This document shows, piece after piece, positions 5,232 to 57,668 of a DNA stretch of 64,000 nucleotides. Under the pieces are notes generated by a model. That model was given only the letters and a program-made list of their open reading frames with translations, did not search any database and had not been told where the DNA came from. A program made the translations under genes and the position numbers. Origin of the DNA: a virus; the IMG/VR virus record IMGVR_UViG_3300037258_000590, positions 124,001 through 188,000 of that record, one strand, 5' to 3'. Every line of letters begins with the position of its first letter. The stretch's first letter is position 1.

Positions 5232-5706
5232 GATCCTCTCCCTTCAAGCGCTGCTCAGCCGCATCAGCCAAGATGCCTGCCGGGATCTCCGGCGCCTGAT
5301 CATTCTCGCTGGCCATCTCAGGGGCAGGCTCAGCAGGAATCCTCGCCGGCGGTGACGCCAGCACCTCTTCGCACGCCCAGGCTGGCAGGTAATCGCCTCG
5401 CGCGGCCAGGATGACCGGGCTCTCGTACTCAGGTTCAGCCGGAGGTGCGGGTAGCGGCGTGCGGGCGACGATGCGCAGGGCCAGCCAGGCCAGCAGCCCC
5501 GCGGCGGCGCAGGCAACAGCAGCGATGGCGGCGCGCGCAGCCTGGGCTAGCCCCGCGGAGTGCGCGTGCGCCTCGTAACGCGTGCCGCCGGCGAGGATGA
5601 CGGCGATAACCAGCCCGGTCGCGATCCCGGTCCCGGTCATGCTGCACTGCGCGGTCCGGGCCTGGCGGCGGCACCAGGCGCTGTAGCGACCCCGCAGAGT
5701 CCGCAT
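5203..5706 (-). CDS. Membrane protein with proline-rich tail
   Basis: 167 aa. Two hydrophobic stretches (about residues 24-41 and 55-82, ending in GLLAWLALRIVA) are followed by a proline/glutamate-rich cytoplasmic-looking tail. The start overlaps the preceding stop as TAATG. The position directly behind the translocase and its winged-helix partner suggests a role in the transfer apparatus (inference). Confidence 0.7.
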   Translation of the reverse strand: MRTLRGRYSAWCRRQARTAQCSMTGTGIATGLVIAVILAGGTRYEAHAHSAGLAQAARAAIAAVACAAAGLLAWLALRIVARTPLPAPPAEPEYESPVILAARGDYLPAWACEEVLASPPARIPAEPAPEMASENDQAPEIPAGILADAAEQRLKGEDHGHEIQRVG

Positions 5707-6350
5707 TACGGCCGCCCCTCGATCAGCCCGGCCCAGATCCGGAACAGGCTGCTGTTCAAGCCCGGCCGGTACAGCGGGTCGCCACCGCAGATCTTGCCGC
5801 TGTGGTAGAGGACTTCCAGGAACGTGCGCGACGGCAGGCGGATGGCCCAGCTTCCAGGGTGCCGGAGGCCTGTGCCTGCATGGCCGGTGATGTCGAAGCT
5901 GCCGGCAGCCAGCTGGCGGATCACTTCCAGGGTGGCCTGGTCGGTGACCGCGTGCACGGCGCTGACGTCCTGGTTCTCATCCAGGTCAATCCGGGTGACC
6001 CGGAAGATGCCTGCTGCCACCGCAGTCTCCTGATCGCCGGTCTTATGTACGTCCTTTGCTGTAGTATAGCCGGTGCCCCCGAATCCGGGGATGCTGAACT
6101 CCTGCCCTTCGGGAAACTGCCAGATCCACCGGTCCTTGCCCTCCCGCCGCCTTGCGCGCAAGACGTATCCGTGCTGCTCCGCCCGGTTCAGCCAGGCGTG
6201 CACGGCCTGCCGGCCTGCAGTCAGGCCCTCGTTGTACAGCGCAGCCAGCAGCCAGGGCGCGGTACAGCCCGCAGAGCGGTGCTCGATCAGGAGCTGGTAC
6301 AGCCGCCTGCATGCCGGATGCAGCACCGGGATCTCCTCGTGGTCAGGCAT
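5706..6350 (-). CDS. Stand-alone winged-helix protein, paralogous to the translocase C-terminus
   Basis: 214 aa from ATG 6350, two bases after the translocase stop. Residues ~10-85 (RRLYQLLIEHRSAGCTAPWL, then RQAVHAWLNRAEQHGYV, RWIWQFPEGQEFSIPGF) are clearly related to the last ~80 residues of the translocase (RMYTLLIEAGGRGYTAGMLW ... RWIWQLPEGQEFDIPGF). In TraB/FtsK proteins this winged helix recognises the transfer or orientation sequence. The C-terminal ~120 residues (FRVTRIDLDENQDVSAVHAV onwards) are unrelated and unrecognised. It may bind the same DNA repeats as the translocase, as a loader or competitor. Confidence 0.8.
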   Translation of the reverse strand: MPDHEEIPVLHPACRRLYQLLIEHRSAGCTAPWLLAALYNEGLTAGRQAVHAWLNRAEQHGYVLRARRREGKDRWIWQFPEGQEFSIPGFGGTGYTTAKDVHKTGDQETAVAAGIFRVTRIDLDENQDVSAVHAVTDQATLEVIRQLAAGSFDITGHAGTGLRHPGSWAIRLPSRTFLEVLYHSGKICGGDPLYRPGLNSSLFRIWAGLIEGRP

Positions 6351-6352
6351 CG

Positions 6353-8998
6353 TCAGCTGAATCCGGGAATGTCGAACTCCTGGCCTTCGGGAAGCTGCCA
6401 GATCCACCGGGCCTTGCCGGACTGCGGCTTGCCGGTGGTGTATACGTAGCCCTGCTGGCGGGCCTGACTCAGCCAGGAGTGCACCGTCTGCCGGGTCACG
6501 CTCAGGTGCTCGTTTTCCAGCCTGGTCCACAGCATCCCGGCGGTGTAGCCCCGGCCGCCCGCCTCGATCAGCAGGGTATACATCCGCTTGCGGACCGGGT
6601 TCAGCTTGTGCCCAGGCTCGTCATCGTCCAGCAGGCCGCCGTCCAGGCCTGCCATGCCGCTCAGCAGCGGGTCGTTCTGCCAGATGGAGTCGAAGTCTTC
6701 CCCGGCCGGGCCGTCCGCCGGGTTACGGTCCGCGGCGCCACCGCCAGCGAGAACGGGGGCGGGGCGGTCCGCGATGCCTGCCTCAGTCTTCCACTGCGCC
6801 AGCAGGCCGGCGATATGCGGCTGCTCCCAGCGCTTGGCGTACGCGTCACCCATCGCGTCCGCAAGCAGTTTCTCCGGTGCCGGGCGCCGTTCCGCGGTGC
6901 TCAGCACGACCGGCGTGATCCGGTCCTCAGTCGGGTGCCCGTCATCATCGGGGCTGCCATCGGTGATGTTGTAGAAGTGGACCGGCGGGTACAGCTCGGA
7001 ACCGACCTTCGGGATGCCCGAGCCTTTGTCCTTCAGCTGGGCCAGCTGCCTGGCCGCGGGGTAGTCGTCGGGGAAAATCGCCTGGCCCTCGCCGATGGTG
7101 GCCACCTTCATCCCGATCCGGACTTCAGCCATGGCCTTGAGGCCGGAGTTACCGGTGACGTCGACTACCGCGCGGACCGCGGCGACCACCGGGTCAATGG
7201 CCACCGACCGGAATGTCTCGGCGATCTGCAGCAGCCGGGTGGCCAGCTGGGTGTTGGAGATGCTGTCCTCGCGGATGAAGTGCCCGGTCATGACCGCGGT
7301 CTCGTCGCAGATCACGATGACGGCCGGAGCCATCTGGCCGTCGTGCTGGATGCCGGGCCGCAGTTTCCGGGCGTACTTTCCCGATTCGGCTCGCGCGGTG
7401 CCGCCCGCCCACAGCGCATCGAGCATGATCTTAGCTTCCTCGCGGTTGGTGGCCAGCCAGTCAATCGGCGGCCGGTCCACATGCCCCTGCAGCCACGGCA
7501 TGAGCCACGCCCTGGCCTCCTGGCCGCCCTTGAGGTCGATCATGAAGATCAGCGCGTCAGGCATCCGGCACAGCTGCGCGATGAAGATATTCAGCAGGGT
7601 GGAGTTGTGCGTCGGTACGCACGCCTGCCCGGCCAGGTACAGGCTGCTCGGGCTGTCCACCTCGATGCATCGCACGGGAACGCTGGGCACGAGCCGGATG
7701 GCGCTGATGCACTGGTAATCCCCGTCTCGTGACCGGAACGGCGCTGCTGTCCTGATGCTGTACGGCACAGCAGTCAGCACTAGCTGTTCCGTCGTAAGAA
7801 CCCTGGGACAGCCGGCCGGGTGCTGCTCCTGCGGAGACCAGACCTGCCACTGATGAGCTGCATCGGCTGTGATCCGCTGGCCGCCGCTGAACTCAATCTC
7901 ATAGCAGCGCCTGCCGTGCAGGACGGCCGTCGTCGCGAGCACCCGGCAGGGCTGCCCGGCCTCATCGAACACCTGGTCTCCGGCCGTAATCTCGCCCATG
8001 GTGGTCCAGCCGGACGGCGTGGCGATCTTCGTATCCAGGGCCAGGGCCTTGCCGGACCCGCGGACCCCGCATATGAACACCACGACTTCGCGCAGTTTCA
8101 GGGCGAACTCGCGCCCGGTATCCAGCACGCCGATCCCGAACGGCCGGTTGACGGACAGCAGGCCGTTCCCCGCAGGCAGCCACCTGGCCACCCGCGGGCC
8201 GCGCAGCTCCCGGACGTGGATGATGAAATCCGCCGCCGAACCGCCAGCCGGCTCCTCCTCGATGTAGACGGCGCCCTTGGGCAGCCGCTTGTGGACGGCC
8301 AGCCGCATAGCCAGGTCCCGGATCGCGTCGTGGGTGAGGACCGCGTGGCCGTCGACCGCTTTGCCGTGCCTGCAGTGCACCTGGTAGCCGCCGTCGACCC
8401 GCAGGATGTCCCGGCAGATGACCCGCGGCACGTTGAGGCGGCCGAGCAGCGCTTCCCAGTACCGGCACTCACGGGTGTTCGTGCTGTCCCGGCCGGTCTC
8501 GGCGACCCGGTTCACCCGGTCCCGGAACCGGCGGATAACGGTAACCCCGGCCGGGGCCAGCATGACAACCGGAAGCAGCAACGCGAAAATCACGGTGCCG
8601 TTCCACGGGCCGGCCAGCCGCGCGGCAGTGAGCCACCCGGTCAGGCACATGCCCCAGATCCCCAGGTACCCGGCCATCGGCGCCGAATTGGTGAGCTGGT
8701 AAGAGGTGTACCAGATCACGGCGGTCATGACGCCCGCGAGGACGGAAAGCATCCACGTCGGAACGCTGTGCGGGACAGCGATCGCCGCGATCCAGGTGAG
8801 CACGGCCGCGGCGAAGCTGGTCTCCAGGACATGCAGCCACAGGCCGTCATCGGCGTGCTTGCCGGGCAGCGGCACATGTCCCGGCCGGTCCCGGCGCCGT
8901 GCCGGGCGCGAGTACGCATCCTCGGCCTGCTCGTCCACCCAGGCTGGCCGCTGCCCCTTCTCGTCCTGCTGTTCGCGGCCACCGTCGATGTCCTTCAC
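6353..8998 (-). CDS. TraB/FtsK-type DNA translocase interrupted by an intein
   Basis: 881-aa precursor. Hydrophobic segments lie at about 58-77, 80-98, 108-128 and 134-155. Walker A is VRGSGK at residues 312-317, interrupted at once by the intein (318-465) and completed by S466 TLLNIF. Walker B is AVIVICDE at 559-566. A linker (730-795) leads to a C-terminal winged helix (800-878). After removal of 148 residues the host protein is ~733 aa, normal for actinomycete conjugative translocases, which pump double-stranded DNA at the membrane. The position after DUF2637 and arginine-rich membrane genes supports conjugative transfer. Unspliced protein would lack a functional ATP site. Confidence 0.9.
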   Translation of the reverse strand: MKDIDGGREQQDEKGQRPAWVDEQAEDAYSRPARRRDRPGHVPLPGKHADDGLWLHVLETSFAAAVLTWIAAIAVPHSVPTWMLSVLAGVMTAVIWYTSYQLTNSAPMAGYLGIWGMCLTGWLTAARLAGPWNGTVIFALLLPVVMLAPAGVTVIRRFRDRVNRVAETGRDSTNTRECRYWEALLGRLNVPRVICRDILRVDGGYQVHCRHGKAVDGHAVLTHDAIRDLAMRLAVHKRLPKGAVYIEEEPAGGSAADFIIHVRELRGPRVARWLPAGNGLLSVNRPFGIGVLDTGREFALKLREVVVFICGVRGSGKALALDTKIATPSGWTTMGEITAGDQVFDEAGQPCRVLATTAVLHGRRCYEIEFSGGQRITADAAHQWQVWSPQEQHPAGCPRVLTTEQLVLTAVPYSIRTAAPFRSRDGDYQCISAIRLVPSVPVRCIEVDSPSSLYLAGQACVPTHNSTLLNIFIAQLCRMPDALIFMIDLKGGQEARAWLMPWLQGHVDRPPIDWLATNREEAKIMLDALWAGGTARAESGKYARKLRPGIQHDGQMAPAVIVICDETAVMTGHFIREDSISNTQLATRLLQIAETFRSVAIDPVVAAVRAVVDVTGNSGLKAMAEVRIGMKVATIGEGQAIFPDDYPAARQLAQLKDKGSGIPKVGSELYPPVHFYNITDGSPDDDGHPTEDRITPVVLSTAERRPAPEKLLADAMGDAYAKRWEQPHIAGLLAQWKTEAGIADRPAPVLAGGGAADRNPADGPAGEDFDSIWQNDPLLSGMAGLDGGLLDDDEPGHKLNPVRKRMYTLLIEAGGRGYTAGMLWTRLENEHLSVTRQTVHSWLSQARQQGYVYTTGKPQSGKARWIWQLPEGQEFDIPGFS
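7604..8047 (-). other. Mini-intein with class 3 features in the Walker A motif
   Basis: 148 residues (318-465 of the precursor). It begins with alanine (ALALDTKIATPSG), not Cys or Ser, and ends VPTHN before Ser. Block B reads ITADAAHQWQVW with H382 and W384; block F reads VRCIEVDSPSSLYL with C444; block G has T463-H464-N465. Trp (B:12), Cys (F:4) and Thr (G:5) are the WCT signature described for class 3 inteins such as the one in mycobacteriophage Bethlehem DnaB, where the block F cysteine is the first nucleophile. There is no homing endonuclease domain. Confidence 0.88.
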
Positions 8999-9784: not shown

Positions 9785-11401
9785 GTTTCCTCCTGACAGC
9801 GGCCACAACGGGCCGGATCTTCCTGGCATCCCCGCCGCGGAAGGCGCGGATGCGGTCTGCGGAACCGGGACGCCAGCCGGGCGGCGCTGGCGGGCCAGCC
9901 ACCGGTCCTGCCGGCGCCGGTCCAGGTTCCGCAGCCTGCTGGTGAGCCAGCTGTTGCGGTGCCGGCCGCCGTGCGCCCACGCCCTCGGAGGCCGCCGGTT
10001 GCGGCGGATCCGGCGGAACCAGGCCCGCACGGGCCGGCCGTGCCGGCTGAGGCCTGCCCGGGTGACGTGCCCGCCCAGGCCCGCCAGCCGGATCCGCAAC
10101 GGCACGTGCCGTCTGGTGCCGAGCCCGAGCCCGCGGTACTTCCGCCGCCGCAGCCAGAAACCGTGCCACCGGGTCGCTACCCTGGCCCGCCACGGCAGGC
10201 GCGTCCCGGCACGGCGGCGTTTCGCGATTGCGCGCCTGGCCTGCCGGCGGCGCATCGTAGCCCGCAAGCCGCCGCCGCGGGTCCAGATCCGCCACGGCGC
10301 CCACAACGGCACACGACGCCGGTACGGATTCCGCGCGGCTCGTTTACGCGCGGCCCGCAGCCTGACCCGGTGAGCCTTGCGCCTGCTCCGGAGATAGGCG
10401 CGCCGTTCCGGGCGGCCGATCACCTTCCAGGCCTGGCGGCGGAAAAACCCGGCCCGCTTCAGTCCGGCCGGACGGCGGAACCAGGTCCGCGGGCGGGCCA
10501 GGCGGCGGGCCCAGGTCCGCGGGCGGAACCAGGTCCGCGGGCGGAACCAGGTCCGCGGGCGGAACAGGCGGCGCAGGCGAGCTGTCCCGCCCGCGGCGCC
10601 AGCGGTACGCGGCCGTCGCCCGATGCGGAAGCGGCGCCTGCGCGCTGTCCCTCCCGCCGCCCCGCCGCCAGGACGACGGCCGCGCGGTCCGGTACCGGTG
10701 CGCGGCCGTCGCCAGGTGGACGGGCGGAGCAGGCGGCGGCGGGGAACGCGGGGAGCGGTGCCGCCTGCTCCAGTCCTTCGCCGGGTCCGGGGAGAACCCC
10801 CCGGAAGCCGGCGGATCCTGCGAAAAGCCGGCGAAGACCGCCTGGCAGTGCCGGGATTCCGCCTGGGGCCGCGGAACAGCGCTGCCCGGCGGCCGGCTCC
10901 GCTGCCGGAACGGCCGCCAGGCCCGCGCCGCGCCGCAGAACGCCTGTGCGCGCCACCGGAAGCCCCCGCACCTGTCCCGCGCCGGCGGGGGCCAGCCCCC
11001 AGCGAGCGCAGCGCACTGCGGCCCCGACCGCGGGCCCTGCTGAACATGGCACCGCCACCGCGATGCCCGGCCAGCTGGCGGAAACCCCTGCCGCGCTGGC
11101 CGGGCCAGTTGAGACTGCCGCTGGTCCGCGTCCGGGTCACCCGGGTCGAGGTCCTGGCCTGACGTTCCCGGCGGCCGAACGGATGGAAGTGCCGCTGCAA
11201 GTGCGGGTAACGGAACAAGCCGAGCAGCAGCAGCGCGCCACCCCCGGTGCCGGCCAGGACCCACATCGACAGCCGGCCGCCCATGGCATGCTCAGCGATC
11301 AGCAGGGCTCCGGCGGCGAGCAGGATAACGAGAATGACACGACGCCATCCGATCCTGCCCGCGGGGGGGTCCGGTGCGCTAGTCTCAGGACCTGTTGTCA
11401 T
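9512..11401 (-). CDS. Arginine-rich membrane protein (long frame)
   Basis: 629 aa from ATG 11401 (GGAGCTGGCC upstream); an ATG at 11461 is less likely. Two membrane helices occupy about residues 20-38 and 45-62. Then follow ~460 residues dominated by arginine, glycine and tryptophan, including a repeat RPRTWF-RPRTWF. The frame has far better third-position G/C than overlapping frames, so it is the best candidate despite its odd composition. The last 90 codons are a normal helical domain with its own start. The cytoplasmic tail would carry an extreme positive charge, suited to binding DNA or RNA at the membrane (inference). Confidence 0.6.
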   Translation of the reverse strand: MTTGPETSAPDPPAGRIGWRRVILVILLAAGALLIAEHAMGGRLSMWVLAGTGGGALLLLGLFRYPHLQRHFHPFGRRERQARTSTRVTRTRTSGSLNWPGQRGRGFRQLAGHRGGGAMFSRARGRGRSALRSLGAGPRRRGTGAGASGGAHRRSAARRGPGGRSGSGAGRRAALFRGPRRNPGTARRSSPAFRRIRRLPGGSPRTRRRTGAGGTAPRVPRRRLLRPSTWRRPRTGTGPRGRRPGGGAAGGTARRRRFRIGRRPRTAGAAGGTARLRRLFRPRTWFRPRTWFRPRTWARRLARPRTWFRRPAGLKRAGFFRRQAWKVIGRPERRAYLRSRRKAHRVRLRAARKRAARNPYRRRVPLWAPWRIWTRGGGLRATMRRRQARRAIAKRRRAGTRLPWRARVATRWHGFWLRRRKYRGLGLGTRRHVPLRIRLAGLGGHVTRAGLSRHGRPVRAWFRRIRRNRRPPRAWAHGGRHRNSWLTSRLRNLDRRRQDRWLARQRRPAGVPVPQTASAPSAAGMPGRSGPLWPLSGGNMDTGAMAEQIRELGGREFHDPQDVHDSLTGLHELVGALQDVLHGYGERFDETGVHPRYGEAAREAAGGMAGIADSLEQVTAGGVMRGPGG

Positions 11402-12422
11402 GGCCAGCTCCGTTCCGCTTAGCGCGGACTTCCTGCAGGACGCCTGCCGCGGTGCGGACACTGCCGTTCAGGCGGGCGTCATCCCTGGCCAGATGCCTGA
11501 CACTGGGCAGGGACTGCACGCCGAGGAGGTCCAGGACGACCTGCGCCCGGACTTCCGAAGCCACCGCCAGCCCCGCGGTACGGGCCGCGCGGCCGGGTAC
11601 CAGCCCGGCGCGGCTCCCGGTCCGTTGAGGACGGGGCTGACGGTGACGTCTCCGCGTGGCGGCCGGACCCGCTGCCTGCCCGGCGCCACGACTATCCAGG
11701 TGCTCCCTGGCAGTCTGAGTCTGGTTACCTGCGGGATGCCGCGTCAACTCACGCATGTCCCACTTCGGCGGGGCAACCAGCTTGATGGCCTCGGCGGGCC
11801 GGTTCTCGCCAGCCCACGCGGCCCGCCTGCGCACCTTCCAAGACAAGAACGGGTAGAAGAACGACCGCGTGAAACCGAGCCGGACGGCGTGGTCCTCGAT
11901 CTGGTCACAGGCCTTGAGGTCGTCACGGGACTCGCGGTTAGAGTGAATCCCCCACAGCACCGGGCTGAACACCGAGGCCACGCCGACCGCGATGGCAAAG
12001 GTATCGGGCCGCCAGCCCGGCTCACAGAAGTGGCTGTAATTCAAAGCGCCGATGCCGAGGCCGGTCAGGTAAGCCCCCAGCCGCAGCCGGAGCGCGGAGT
12101 CTCCCTTGAGCCGGGCGACGTGAGCCTGCCAGGCCAGGTAGACAGCGATGGATTCCAGCGCCGTAGCGACCACCGCGCTGACCGCGGACGGGATAGTGAC
12201 ACCCGGGACGGGATGCCGGTGCGACTGGAAGTACAAGAACTGCCCGTAGAACGCGACGAAGTTGACCAGGACGATCGGCACGGCTGCCAGCCACGCCCGG
12301 TGACTGCCGTGCTCCCGGGCGCGGCGGTTCTCAGCTCGCGTGCCAAGCACGAGAAGACCCGCGGTAACAACATCGCTCAGGCCTCGTGACCTGGGCCGGG
12401 AGTCCCGGTTAGGCTGTCCCAT
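11385..12422 (-). CDS. DUF2637 four-helix membrane protein (SpdB-like)
   Basis: 345 aa from ATG 12422, chosen because GGAGGT lies nine bases upstream; the frame continues to 12524 but overlaps inverted repeats. Membrane helices at about 44-66, 76-98, 112-131 and 141-160 match the DUF2637 pattern found with TraB in Streptomyces plasmids and integrative elements, where such spread proteins aid intramycelial transfer. A soluble, arginine-rich region follows (FFYPFLSWKVRRRAAWAG onwards). It overlaps the next gene by 17 bp. Confidence 0.82.
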   Translation of the reverse strand: MGQPNRDSRPRSRGLSDVVTAGLLVLGTRAENRRAREHGSHRAWLAAVPIVLVNFVAFYGQFLYFQSHRHPVPGVTIPSAVSAVVATALESIAVYLAWQAHVARLKGDSALRLRLGAYLTGLGIGALNYSHFCEPGWRPDTFAIAVGVASVFSPVLWGIHSNRESRDDLKACDQIEDHAVRLGFTRSFFYPFLSWKVRRRAAWAGENRPAEAIKLVAPPKWDMRELTRHPAGNQTQTAREHLDSRGAGQAAGPAATRRRHRQPRPQRTGSRAGLVPGRAARTAGLAVASEVRAQVVLDLLGVQSLPSVRHLARDDARLNGSVRTAAGVLQEVRAKRNGAGHDNRS

Positions 12423-17173: not shown

Positions 17174-18058
17174 ATGACCAGCAAGCCCAACACCAGCAAG
17201 CCCAACACCAGCAAGCCCAACACCAGCAAGCCCAACACCCCTGCCAAGCCGAACACCAGCAAGCCCAACACCAGCAAGCCCAACACCCCTGCCAAGCCGA
17301 ACACCAGCAAGCCCAACACCCCTGCCAAGCCGAAGATCGACCTGACCGCGTACAACAGCGCCGTCCGCACCGCTCGGGCCGCTGTTAAGCGCGCCGGTAT
17401 CGCCAACTGGGTTATCGGTGACGCCGCGCTTACCGTGGGCACCAAATACTCAGAGAACAAGCTCGGACAGTTTGCCGATGACATCGGAGTTGAGCTGCCA
17501 AGCGTGCGGAACATGCGCACCGTGAGCGCGGCGTACCAGGCCGACGCCATCGCTCGTGATCTCCAGTCATGGACGGTCTACGGGGTGTTCGCCTCTCAGG
17601 ATGACCGGTACGCGCTTATCGCGGCCGGCAATGACGGTAAGCCCTGGTCTGTGTCGGCCGCGCGTGCGCTGGTCAAGGGCCGGAATGAGTCGGCCGAGTC
17701 GCCGGCGGAAATGCCGGGCGGATCCGAGTCGGACGAGTCGCCGGCGGAAGTGTCGGATCTGGAGAAGGCCAGGGCCGAAGTTCAGCGGCTCGAAGGTGAA
17801 TTGCTGAAGGCACGCGCCAAGCTGGCCAAGCTGGAAGCTGGCATCAAGCAGCAACTTCCGATGCTGGCCGCTGACGGTACCGACTCGCTTGCGGCCACGG
17901 TTCCGGCGCCGATCCAGCACAGTGAACGCAGTGTGCCCGCACACGTGGCCGGCGACTTTCACGCCGCGTGCAAGCAGTGCCAGGCCGCTAAGGCATCTGC
18001 CACGGTGACCGAAATCAGCACGCCGCGCCGCGCGCGCAGTCGTAAGACTGCCGCATAA
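17174..18058 (+). CDS. HTH protein with SKPNT repeats and coiled coil
   Basis: 294 aa from ATG 17174 (AGGAGAAACC upstream). Residues 2-55 are about eight SKPNT or PAKPNT repeats from a 15-bp DNA repeat. Residues ~56-175 (WVIGDAALTVGTKY, LGQFADDIGVELPSVRNMR, SWTVYGVFASQDDRYALI, GKPWSVSAARALVKGR) resemble DUF6192-type actinobacterial HTH proteins (LADDIGlsyaTVxdYR). A heptad region LEKARAEVQRLEGELLKARA follows, then a basic tail with CKQC. Probably a DNA-binding dimer; beside the central repeats it could act in partition or in control of the array. Confidence 0.75.
   Translation: MTSKPNTSKPNTSKPNTSKPNTPAKPNTSKPNTSKPNTPAKPNTSKPNTPAKPKIDLTAYNSAVRTARAAVKRAGIANWVIGDAALTVGTKYSENKLGQFADDIGVELPSVRNMRTVSAAYQADAIARDLQSWTVYGVFASQDDRYALIAAGNDGKPWSVSAARALVKGRNESAESPAEMPGGSESDESPAEVSDLEKARAEVQRLEGELLKARAKLAKLEAGIKQQLPMLAADGTDSLAATVPAPIQHSERSVPAHVAGDFHAACKQCQAAKASATVTEISTPRRARSRKTAA
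17177..17336 (+). repeat. 15-bp tandem coding repeat (SKPNT)
   Basis: Units of AGCAAGCCCAACACC, interspersed with CCTGCCAAGCCGAACACC, encode SKPNT and PAKPNT. Such in-frame repeats change copy number easily. Confidence 0.8.
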
Positions 18059-55199: not shown

Positions 55200-55599
55200 C
55201 CTGAACCTGGACGCACGGGTAACGATAGAGCGGCTGACCAGCCTGGTCTCGGCCATCGCGCTGGGGATCCAGCTCCCGGCAGCGGAAACAATTCCAGCGC
55301 ACTCACTGCCGGGCTACCTCCCTGCCGGAACAGGGGCGGTAACCCGCGCACGCGCAGCACTGACGCGTGCGTTCAGCGTGACCTGGCCGCACCCTGACTG
55401 GGGAACGATCATCCCGGCCCTGGCCGAAGCCGAACAGTACCTGCGTGACGCCGGGCTGATGCGCAAGCCGGAGCTTATGCAGTTCGTGCACCTGGCTGCG
55501 CGAGCTGCCAGCCAGCGCCGGGGCGACGACACCCGGGCGTACATCGATAACATCCGCGGCTACCTGCCAGCTGAAGACAACGAAAAAGAGGGCCCATGA
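55192..55599 (+). CDS. Hypothetical protein
   Basis: 135 aa from GTG 55192. TIERLTSLVSAIALGIQLPA, GTIIPALAEAEQYLRDAGLM; helical. Coupled by ATGA to the Toprim gene, so likely produced with it. Confidence 0.6.
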   Translation: MPDLNLDARVTIERLTSLVSAIALGIQLPAAETIPAHSLPGYLPAGTGAVTRARAALTRAFSVTWPHPDWGTIIPALAEAEQYLRDAGLMRKPELMQFVHLAARAASQRRGDDTRAYIDNIRGYLPAEDNEKEGP

Positions 55600-57668
55600 G
55601 CAAGGTCTGCTACGAACAGCAGCGGTTCACCGATGCCGCCGGGGACGTCATCACCCAGGCTGAGGCGTTCTGCGCGCAATACGCAGCCCAGGGCTGGGAG
55701 CTAACGCTGCGCCAGCTGTACTACCGGTTCATCGCCACCAACACTTTCCCGGACAGCCGGACCGATCCGGTGTCGGGCACTAAGAACACCGAGCGGAATT
55801 ACAAGTGGCTGGGCGACCTGGTATCCAAGGCACGGGTGGGCGGCCTGATCGACTGGCGGCATATCACCGACAGGGGACGGGGGACAGCAGGCGGAGACAG
55901 CGGCTGGCAAAGCCCGGAGTCGATGCTGCGCAGCGCAGCGCGCGGCTACGGGATCACCCACTGGGACGGCCAGCCAGAGTACATCGAGTGCCTGCCACCT
56001 GATCAGGTGATCATCACCAGCGAGGGCGTAAAACCAGTCATCAAAGTGGAAGCCGGCGATCTCGTCCTGACCGGCAAAGGCCGGTTCCGCCCGGTGACCC
56101 GGGTCCTGGCACACGAATACGACGGACCGATGATGACGATCCGCGCAACCGGGCTGCTTCCGTTCCAGGTAACCGCCAACCACCCGGTCTGGACAGCTCA
56201 CTACGACACCTCCAAGCCGGGCTGCAAAGGCGCGACCCGGAAATTCAGCGCAGAGGGATTCGACCGGGCCGACAGCTTGCGCCCGTTTGACCTGCTAGCC
56301 GTCCCGGCACTATCCGAAACCCGCGCAGTCGGACCGGTCACCATGCGGACCAGCGGTAGCCGGGCACGGGTACTCACCATGCCGTGGAACACCAGCTTGC
56401 AAGCACTCATCGGCCTGTACCTGGCCGAAGGCTGCATCCGCAAGGACGGCCGCACCGTCCAGTTCACCATCGGCATGCACGAGCCTGAGCACTGGACCGC
56501 ACTGACAAGCTGGGCCGAGTCCGCCGGTGTCAGCACAAGCACTGCGGTGGACGGCGGCGCGCGACAGGTCTACCTGTATTCAGCCAGCCTGGCTGAATGG
56601 CTGCGCGAGCAATTCGACTGCGGCGCGCGGAACAAGCGCATCCCGCGCTGGCTGCTGGAAGCCCCCAGCGAGGAGCAGATGGAGGTCCTGCGCTGGTACT
56701 ACCGGGGCGACGGGACCGTGGACTACAGCACCAGCAACAGCCTGGTCGCCACCACCCGCAGCCTGCACCTAGCCCACCAGGTCGCGCTGATCCTGATCCG
56801 CAACGGCTACCTGCCCCGCGTGCAGAGCACCCAAGACCACGGCGATCCCCGGTACAGCATGGCGGTAAGCGGCCAGTCCGGTGCGGACCTGATGCGGCGC
56901 TGGGGTCACGAACCCCGCTCGCGAACCTACTCGTACAACCACATGCGAGCCGGAGACGGCCACATGGCCGCGCCCGTCCGGTCAGTCACGACCGAGCATT
57001 ACTCCGGGCTGGTCTACAACCTGGAAGTAGCGGACGACCACACTTACTGTGTGTCAGCGACCGTACACAATTGTTGGGTGGAGAAGGACGCACTATCCCA
57101 GATTATCGACCGGGCAGCCACGCGGTGGGACGTCACCTCATTCGCGTGCAAGGGCTCGCCGTCTACTTCAGCGATGCACGACGCGGCCTTGCGCCTGCGC
57201 GAGCAGGAACGTAACGGCAAGAAAACCACGGTCATCTACCTGGGTGACCATGACCCGACCGGGATCGACATCAGCCGTGACGTACAGGCCCGGCTAACCC
57301 TGTTCCGTTCGAGTGCGTACGTGGACCGGATCGCGCTGAACATGGATCAGGTACTGGAGCTGAACCCGCCGCCGAGCCCGGTCAAGGTCACCGACAGCCG
57401 GACTAACGGCTATGTCGAGACTTTCGGCACAGAGGAGTGCTGGGAGCTGGACGCGATCGAGCCGGCTGACCTGGACACCCTGATCGAAACAGCCATCTTG
57501 TCCCACCTGGACCTGGACCTGCGCCAGGCCCGGCTGGACCGCGAGGAGCAGGAGCGGGCCATCCTGACCGCCATTTACGAGAACTTCAGCCTTGTCCGCG
57601 GGTACCTGCGCGATGAAGGCCTGGCAGGCGATGAAGACGGCAACTACGACGATGACGAGGACAGCTGA
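55596..57668 (+). CDS. Topoisomerase VI-A/Spo11-like Toprim protein with intein
   Basis: 690-aa precursor. N-extein 1-131: ELTLRQLYYRFIATNTFPDS is the winged-helix part (position of the catalytic tyrosine pair in Spo11-like proteins), then the linker to QPEYIE. C-extein 493-690 begins CWVEKDALSQII and contains VIYLGDHDPTGIDI (D551, D553). Joined, YIE-CWVEKDAL is the conserved VEKxA glutamate motif and GDHDPTG the DxD motif of Toprim. The host protein of ~329 aa agrees with single-chain topo VI-A-like proteins of phages and plasmids. Expected role: DNA breakage or processing; no B subunit gene is seen. Acidic C-terminus. Confidence 0.85.
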   Translation: MSKVCYEQQRFTDAAGDVITQAEAFCAQYAAQGWELTLRQLYYRFIATNTFPDSRTDPVSGTKNTERNYKWLGDLVSKARVGGLIDWRHITDRGRGTAGGDSGWQSPESMLRSAARGYGITHWDGQPEYIECLPPDQVIITSEGVKPVIKVEAGDLVLTGKGRFRPVTRVLAHEYDGPMMTIRATGLLPFQVTANHPVWTAHYDTSKPGCKGATRKFSAEGFDRADSLRPFDLLAVPALSETRAVGPVTMRTSGSRARVLTMPWNTSLQALIGLYLAEGCIRKDGRTVQFTIGMHEPEHWTALTSWAESAGVSTSTAVDGGARQVYLYSASLAEWLREQFDCGARNKRIPRWLLEAPSEEQMEVLRWYYRGDGTVDYSTSNSLVATTRSLHLAHQVALILIRNGYLPRVQSTQDHGDPRYSMAVSGQSGADLMRRWGHEPRSRTYSYNHMRAGDGHMAAPVRSVTTEHYSGLVYNLEVADDHTYCVSATVHNCWVEKDALSQIIDRAATRWDVTSFACKGSPSTSAMHDAALRLREQERNGKKTTVIYLGDHDPTGIDISRDVQARLTLFRSSAYVDRIALNMDQVLELNPPPSPVKVTDSRTNGYVETFGTEECWELDAIEPADLDTLIETAILSHLDLDLRQARLDREEQERAILTAIYENFSLVRGYLRDEGLAGDEDGNYDDDEDS
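55989..57071 (+). other. LAGLIDADG intein in the Toprim motif
   Basis: 361 residues, C132 to N492, followed by Cys493. Block A CLPPDQVIITSEGVKPVIKV; block B QVTANHPVW with H196; endonuclease motifs ALIGLYLAEGCI (~270-281) and VLRWYYRGDGTVD (~364-376); block F LVYNLEVADDHTYCVSA; block G VHN. All residues for standard (class 1) splicing are present and the endonuclease helices keep acidic residues (E278, D372), so it may still be mobile. Confidence 0.92.

Follow-up and report, generated by a model that had tools for sequence, protein, structure and literature searches.

The window analysed here is a stretch of 64,000 nucleotides (positions 124,001 to 188,000) of the 210,383-bp virus record IMGVR_UViG_3300037258_000590. 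It contains an open reading frame of 881 aa for an FtsK/SpoIIIE-like translocase, which is interrupted by an intein of 148 aa (residues 318-465; DNA 7604-8047, minus strand). The intein is flanked by Lys317 (8048-8050) and Ser466 (7601-7603), i.e., it sits in the Walker A motif at CGVRGSGK-STLLNIF, where the hyphen marks the interrupted bond. The features of the locus are as follows.

11385..12350, minus strand: gene for a DUF2637-like membrane protein (weak match), upstream of the FtsK-like gene; the cassette is kept in related phages
6353..8998, minus strand: precursor open reading frame, 881 aa, FtsK/SpoIIIE-like translocase split by the intein (phrog_31069, E 1.3e-25)
8048..8998, minus strand: N-extein, 317 aa, hydrophobic and probably membrane-spanning N-terminal part (membrane part judged by eye), ending in GVRGSGK (Walker A)
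7604..8047, minus strand: class 3 type mini-intein, 148 aa (ALALDTKIATPSGWTTMG...PSVPVRCIEVDSPSSLYLAGQACVPTHN)
8045..8047, minus strand: Ala1, non-nucleophilic first intein residue
7904..7906, minus strand: Cys48, counterpart of the redox partner Cys48 in M. smegmatis DnaBi1 (PMC6195587)
7862..7864, minus strand: Asp62, block B DxxH motif (PMC6195587)
7853..7855, minus strand: His65, block B:10
7847..7849, minus strand: Trp67, block B:12, W of the WCT set
7667..7669, minus strand: Cys127, block F:4, C of the WCT set, predicted to start splicing as the nucleophile
7610..7612, minus strand: Thr146, block G:5, T of the WCT set
7604..7609, minus strand: His147-Asn148, C-terminal cleavage residues
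7601..7603, minus strand: Ser+1, putative second nucleophile, and the Walker A serine once spliced
6353..7603, minus strand: C-extein, 416 aa, beginning STLLNIFI, with a Walker B-like IVICDE and a C-terminal winged helix-like DNA-binding domain (by eye)
5706..6350, minus strand: gene downstream of the translocase, whose product resembles in its N-terminal part the translocase C-terminus (52% over 89 residues)

Class 3 inteins are defined by Trp at B:12, Cys at F:4 and Thr at G:5 (PMC5222942, PMC6195587). The window intein carries this set as Trp67, Cys127 and Thr146 (W384, C444 and T463 in the numbering of the open reading frame), together with Ala rather than Ser, Thr or Cys at position 1, the terminal pair His147-Asn148 and Ser at +1. 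In a phmmer search of PDB sequences the best match was 6bs8 (E 2.2e-33, with essentially all 148 residues aligned), followed by 6rix and 6riy; all three are mycobacterial class 3 DnaB inteins. An AlphaFold model of the intein, computed from an alignment of 16 mini-inteins, had a mean pLDDT of 91.4, and the best seven Foldseek matches to this predicted fold were all class 3 mycobacterial DnaB inteins. Residues invariant in the alignment of 16 were Ala1, Cys48, His65, Trp67, Cys127, Thr146, His147 and Asn148. The sequence-only reading had called the insert a mini-intein of class 3 type that carries the WCT set, and had named a comparison with known inteins as a check; residues, phmmer kinship with the solved class 3 DnaB inteins and predicted fold all bear this out, and the class 3 identity is right as an assignment from sequence. 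Assignment to class 1 was rejected, since Ala1 offers no nucleophile and the class 1 route is thereby ruled out, and class 2 was disfavoured with the WCT set complete. A Pfam scan of the whole 881-aa open reading frame gave no match, and hence no homing endonuclease domain was recognised in the intein, while the same Pfam library detects LAGLIDADG in related inteins.

The boundaries were examined against relatives of the translocase. A profile scan of viral contigs, based on an alignment, recovered 37 FtsK-like relatives; a scan with the single protein gave no hits, probably since the patterns it used covered variable peptides. After in silico removal of the intein from the query, tblastn alignments ran unbroken through the P-loop of two phage orthologues: L118, aligned at 40% over 688 aa, and L117, aligned at 38% over 703 aa. 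Their P-loops read GVRGSGKSNLL and GVIGSGKSNLL, respectively. The P-loop is likewise uninterrupted in L179, L188, L154, L119, L120 and L162, and the insert is absent from every other viral relative with a readable P-loop. These empty-site orthologues confirm, at the level of sequence, the intein boundaries and the exact product predicted from splicing; an artefact or wrongly drawn boundaries were ruled out by them. The coordinates 7604-8047 and the placement between Lys and Ser of GSGKS, both given in the earlier reading, match exactly. The reading frame is intact through the intein, and its base composition resembles that of the exteins.

The host protein had been described as a conjugation translocase. 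Other stretches of the source record encode terminase, portal, HK97-type major capsid, tail and primase genes, and the record is a large actinobacterial phage. The extein matches phrog_31069, a family of phage FtsK/SpoIIIE-like proteins, with the E value given above (1e-86 for the best of its relatives), and a profile of the extein relatives matches FtsK structures (2iuu, E 4.7e-11). The score of the window protein against NCBIfam plasmid_TraB (NF041214) was 12.1 bits, whereas the curated equivalog cut-off is 800 bits; the best relative reached E 6.4e-19, still under the cut-off. In the strongest rival reading, the host would be a TraB-like conjugation translocase of a phage-plasmid or integrative element, and splicing would license conjugative DNA transfer. 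Consistent with this are the TraB/FtsK-like domain plan (a membrane part at the N-terminus, a RecA-type motor and a DNA-binding region at the C-terminus), the matches of translocase relatives to plasmid_TraB down to E 6e-19, the presence of such relatives on Streptomyces plasmids, and the DUF2637-like gene that precedes the translocase gene. However, the record is a phage with terminase, portal, capsid and tail genes, the TraB cut-off is missed by far, and many viral contigs hold relatives of the translocase; FtsK-like genes are also known in mycobacteriophages, where their role is unclear (PMC3706429). We consider the conjugation reading unlikely, and it was set aside as unproven once the whole record turned out to be phage. 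The phage gene set and the TraB match below cut-off point to a conjugation link that would be one of distant kinship and is no evidence of transfer. The cassette of DUF2637-like and FtsK-like genes is common to L117 and L118. In the downstream gene (5706-6350, minus strand), the product repeats the helix-turn-helix-like region at the C-terminus of the translocase.

A scan with the pattern GSGKALALDT returned 49 viral and 30 genome stretches. Together with loci added later, these yielded 91 class 3 type inteins, a set biased by the GSGKALALDT DNA pattern and counting a few overlapping loci, and nearly all of them lie at GK-S/T. Their hosts are terminases, DnaB, chromosomal FtsK, other FtsK-like proteins, the coupling proteins TraD and DotL, and other P-loop proteins. 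W, C and T were all present in 89 of the 91, a frequency biased upwards because retrieval relied mainly on that pattern. Class 3 inteins at the P-loop Lys-Ser/Thr bond are common. A chromosomal FtsK of Trebonia kvetii (L097), with alpha, motor and gamma domains, is interrupted by a class 3 intein, and FtsK-like proteins L076, L086 and L088 also hold class 3 type inteins. LAGLIDADG was found in all Pfam-scanned inteins of the FtsK, FtsK-like and TraD/DotL group; the intein of DotL measures just 150 aa. The sequence-only reading had thought a class 3 intein unusual in such a protein, a view not supported in the light of the inteins of TraD, DotL, chromosomal FtsK and another phage FtsK-like protein, and of the IcmO precedent (PMC5222942). 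At title and abstract level in the open-access literature, no report was found of inteins in TraB, TraD, FtsK, coupling proteins or DNA translocases, the IcmO paper being the sole one with a related host; the phage FtsK-like translocase is apparently an unreported host family for class 3 inteins.

Several of these loci deserve separate mention. In Streptosporangiales, class 3 inteins split the cell-division FtsK within its Walker A motif (L097, L081, L091 and L095). Another type of phage FtsK-like protein (L180:5397-8363, plus strand) adjoins a DUF2637-like gene and holds a class 3 P-loop intein of about 355 aa, of which the C-terminal 35 residues are 77% identical to the window intein. Class 3 type inteins also lie at GSGK-T of type IV coupling proteins, namely TraD of pKAZ5 (L066, 3617-6589), where a LAGLIDADG domain is present, and DotL of a Pseudomonas plasmid (L065, 2602-5697); similar matches occur on Klebsiella, Citrobacter and Enterobacter plasmids, and no literature report of TraD or DotL inteins was found.

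The closest structural parallels are the DnaB inteins of M. smegmatis (DnaBi1) and M. chimaera (DnaB-1) (6bs8, 6rix, 6riy; PMC6195587, PMC5222942), which resemble the window intein in the WCT set, Cys48, the lack of an endonuclease, the GK-S site and the predicted fold. DnaBi1 has its WCT set at Trp67, Cys118 and Thr137, and it shares the positions of Asp62 and His65 with the window intein. The mycobacterial DnaB inteins differ in their host, the replicative helicase DnaB, in the linker between blocks B and F, and in sequence (about 45% identity). The Streptosporangiales FtsK inteins share the GSGK-S bond and the extein superfamily with the window intein, to which the nearest are 55% identical, but their host acts in cell division and complete inteins are 440-494 aa long, with LAGLIDADG shown for L097. 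The TerL1-a inteins of mycobacteriophages also occupy a phage protein at a P-loop Lys-Thr bond, although that protein is a terminase (PMC5050341); Kelley et al. describe the Lys-Thr position in TerL as the classic P-loop insertion (PMC5050341). Bvi IcmO, a class 3 intein of a coupling-protein-like host on a plasmid, published in 2016, is proven to splice (PMC5222942), and IcmO, TraD of pKAZ5 (IncC) and Pseudomonas DotL likewise represent class 3 type inteins in plasmid coupling-type ATPases, those of TraD and DotL at GSGK-T. In contrast to the window protein, these hosts are Gram-negative type IV secretion proteins, the inteins form a distant branch, and IcmO is interrupted at ARSLGF-CITFA and not at a P-loop.

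In a tree of splicing-domain residues, the window intein grouped with the actinobacterial DnaB and FtsK P-loop inteins (SH-aLRT 94; the tree has few columns and the end branch of the window intein is long, 0.93, which leaves its exact placement unsure). The nearest rows were the chromosomal FtsK inteins, and the TerL and exonuclease inteins of the same phage genome fell elsewhere, so that a copy of another intein within the phage genome was disfavoured. Short and long-branched as it is, the tree supports separate acquisition and names no donor. Taken together, we read the locus, with a probability of roughly 0.85, as a class 3 type mini-intein, able to splice and derived from actinobacterial P-loop inteins, in the Walker A motif of a phage FtsK/SpoIIIE-like DNA translocase, having lost its endonuclease and splicing constitutively. 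Its ancestor would most likely have carried a homing endonuclease and moved between P-loop genes in actinobacteria and in the phages that infect them, the endonuclease being lost later in the lineage of the window intein. One and the same bond has been invaded repeatedly, in TerL, DnaB, FtsK, TraD and DotL, and homing into a conserved P-loop fits this better than regulation of the host protein. Class 3 P-loop inteins are thereby extended to phage FtsK-like motors, and related inteins in host FtsK and phage FtsK-like genes, beside intein-free orthologues, allow the exchange of inteins between phages and bacteria to be put to the test.

By class 3 chemistry, Cys127 would attack the Lys-Ala1 bond after translation, the N-extein would then move to Ser+1, and cyclisation of Asn148 with an O-to-N acyl shift would give back GVRGSGKS. 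In model precursors, splicing is poor for some class 3 inteins (PMC5222942). The proposal that no precursor can bind ATP is supported in that a precursor very probably cannot use ATP, given the insertion in Walker A and the analogy with a P-loop RadA intein, which disrupts ATPase as cited in PMC6195587. The further claim that splicing serves as a switch for DNA transfer fares less well: the orthologues examined are all intein-free, which leaves a conserved splicing switch unsupported. Constitutive splicing, together with the need of the motor for splicing, would explain why the window intein is maintained.

A redox switch is the next alternative, in which oxidation would form a Cys48-Cys127 disulphide and block splicing, leaving the translocase unable to use ATP until the cell is reduced. 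The insertion in Walker A suits such control, and the intein shares Cys48 with M. smegmatis DnaBi1, where a Cys48-Cys118 disulphide stops splicing (PMC6195587). However, Cys48 occurs in 80 of the 91 related inteins, those of terminases included, and changes to it abolish splicing of DnaBi1 (PMC6195587); being so widespread and needed for DnaBi1 splicing, Cys48 may be structural. The translocase relatives examined, moreover, are all without an intein, which argues that the family does not need control of this kind. We regard the switch as quite improbable, and its elaboration into a timer, gated by redox state or stress, for a phage DNA motor bound to the membrane, with the Cys48-Cys127 pair delaying P-loop maturation until conditions are permissive, as very improbable. 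Least credible is a decayed intein that has lost splicing and left the translocase dead in this phage, as the long end branch and missing endonuclease might suggest, because every known catalytic residue is in place, the frame is open and the fold is predicted with confidence.

The FtsK-like gene is one of several in this phage to carry an intein. At least seven inteins lie in six genes of the 210-kb genome, i.e., terminase, portal, exonuclease (two inteins), a tail-region protein, topoisomerase and the FtsK-like gene (loci L012:7012-9819, L012:1545-4136, L007:569-3451 and L009:11038-12690, all minus strand, and window 55596-57668, plus strand, and 7604-8047, minus strand); the portal and tail-region inteins and the one at the first exonuclease position are less certain, having been identified by reading the sequence. 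Interest in the locus is modest and lies in the host family and this intein load. The terminase intein (L012:8455-9486, minus strand) has the WCT set and Cys at +1, with an N-terminal boundary unsure by at least one residue. The second exonuclease intein (L007:971-2005, minus strand) shows class 3 kinship and keeps Cys F:4, has Gly1 and Cys+1, is without the Trp and Thr of the WCT set and ends in VHN; judged by these residues, it is a variant or decaying class 3 intein. Elsewhere in the window, the protein encoded at 17174-18058 (plus strand) starts with a low-complexity TSKPNTSKPNTPAKPNT repeat. The phage also encodes an adenylosuccinate synthetase (L012:10899-12185, minus strand; PF00709, E 1.8e-56), an enzyme known from phages with 2-aminoadenine DNA.
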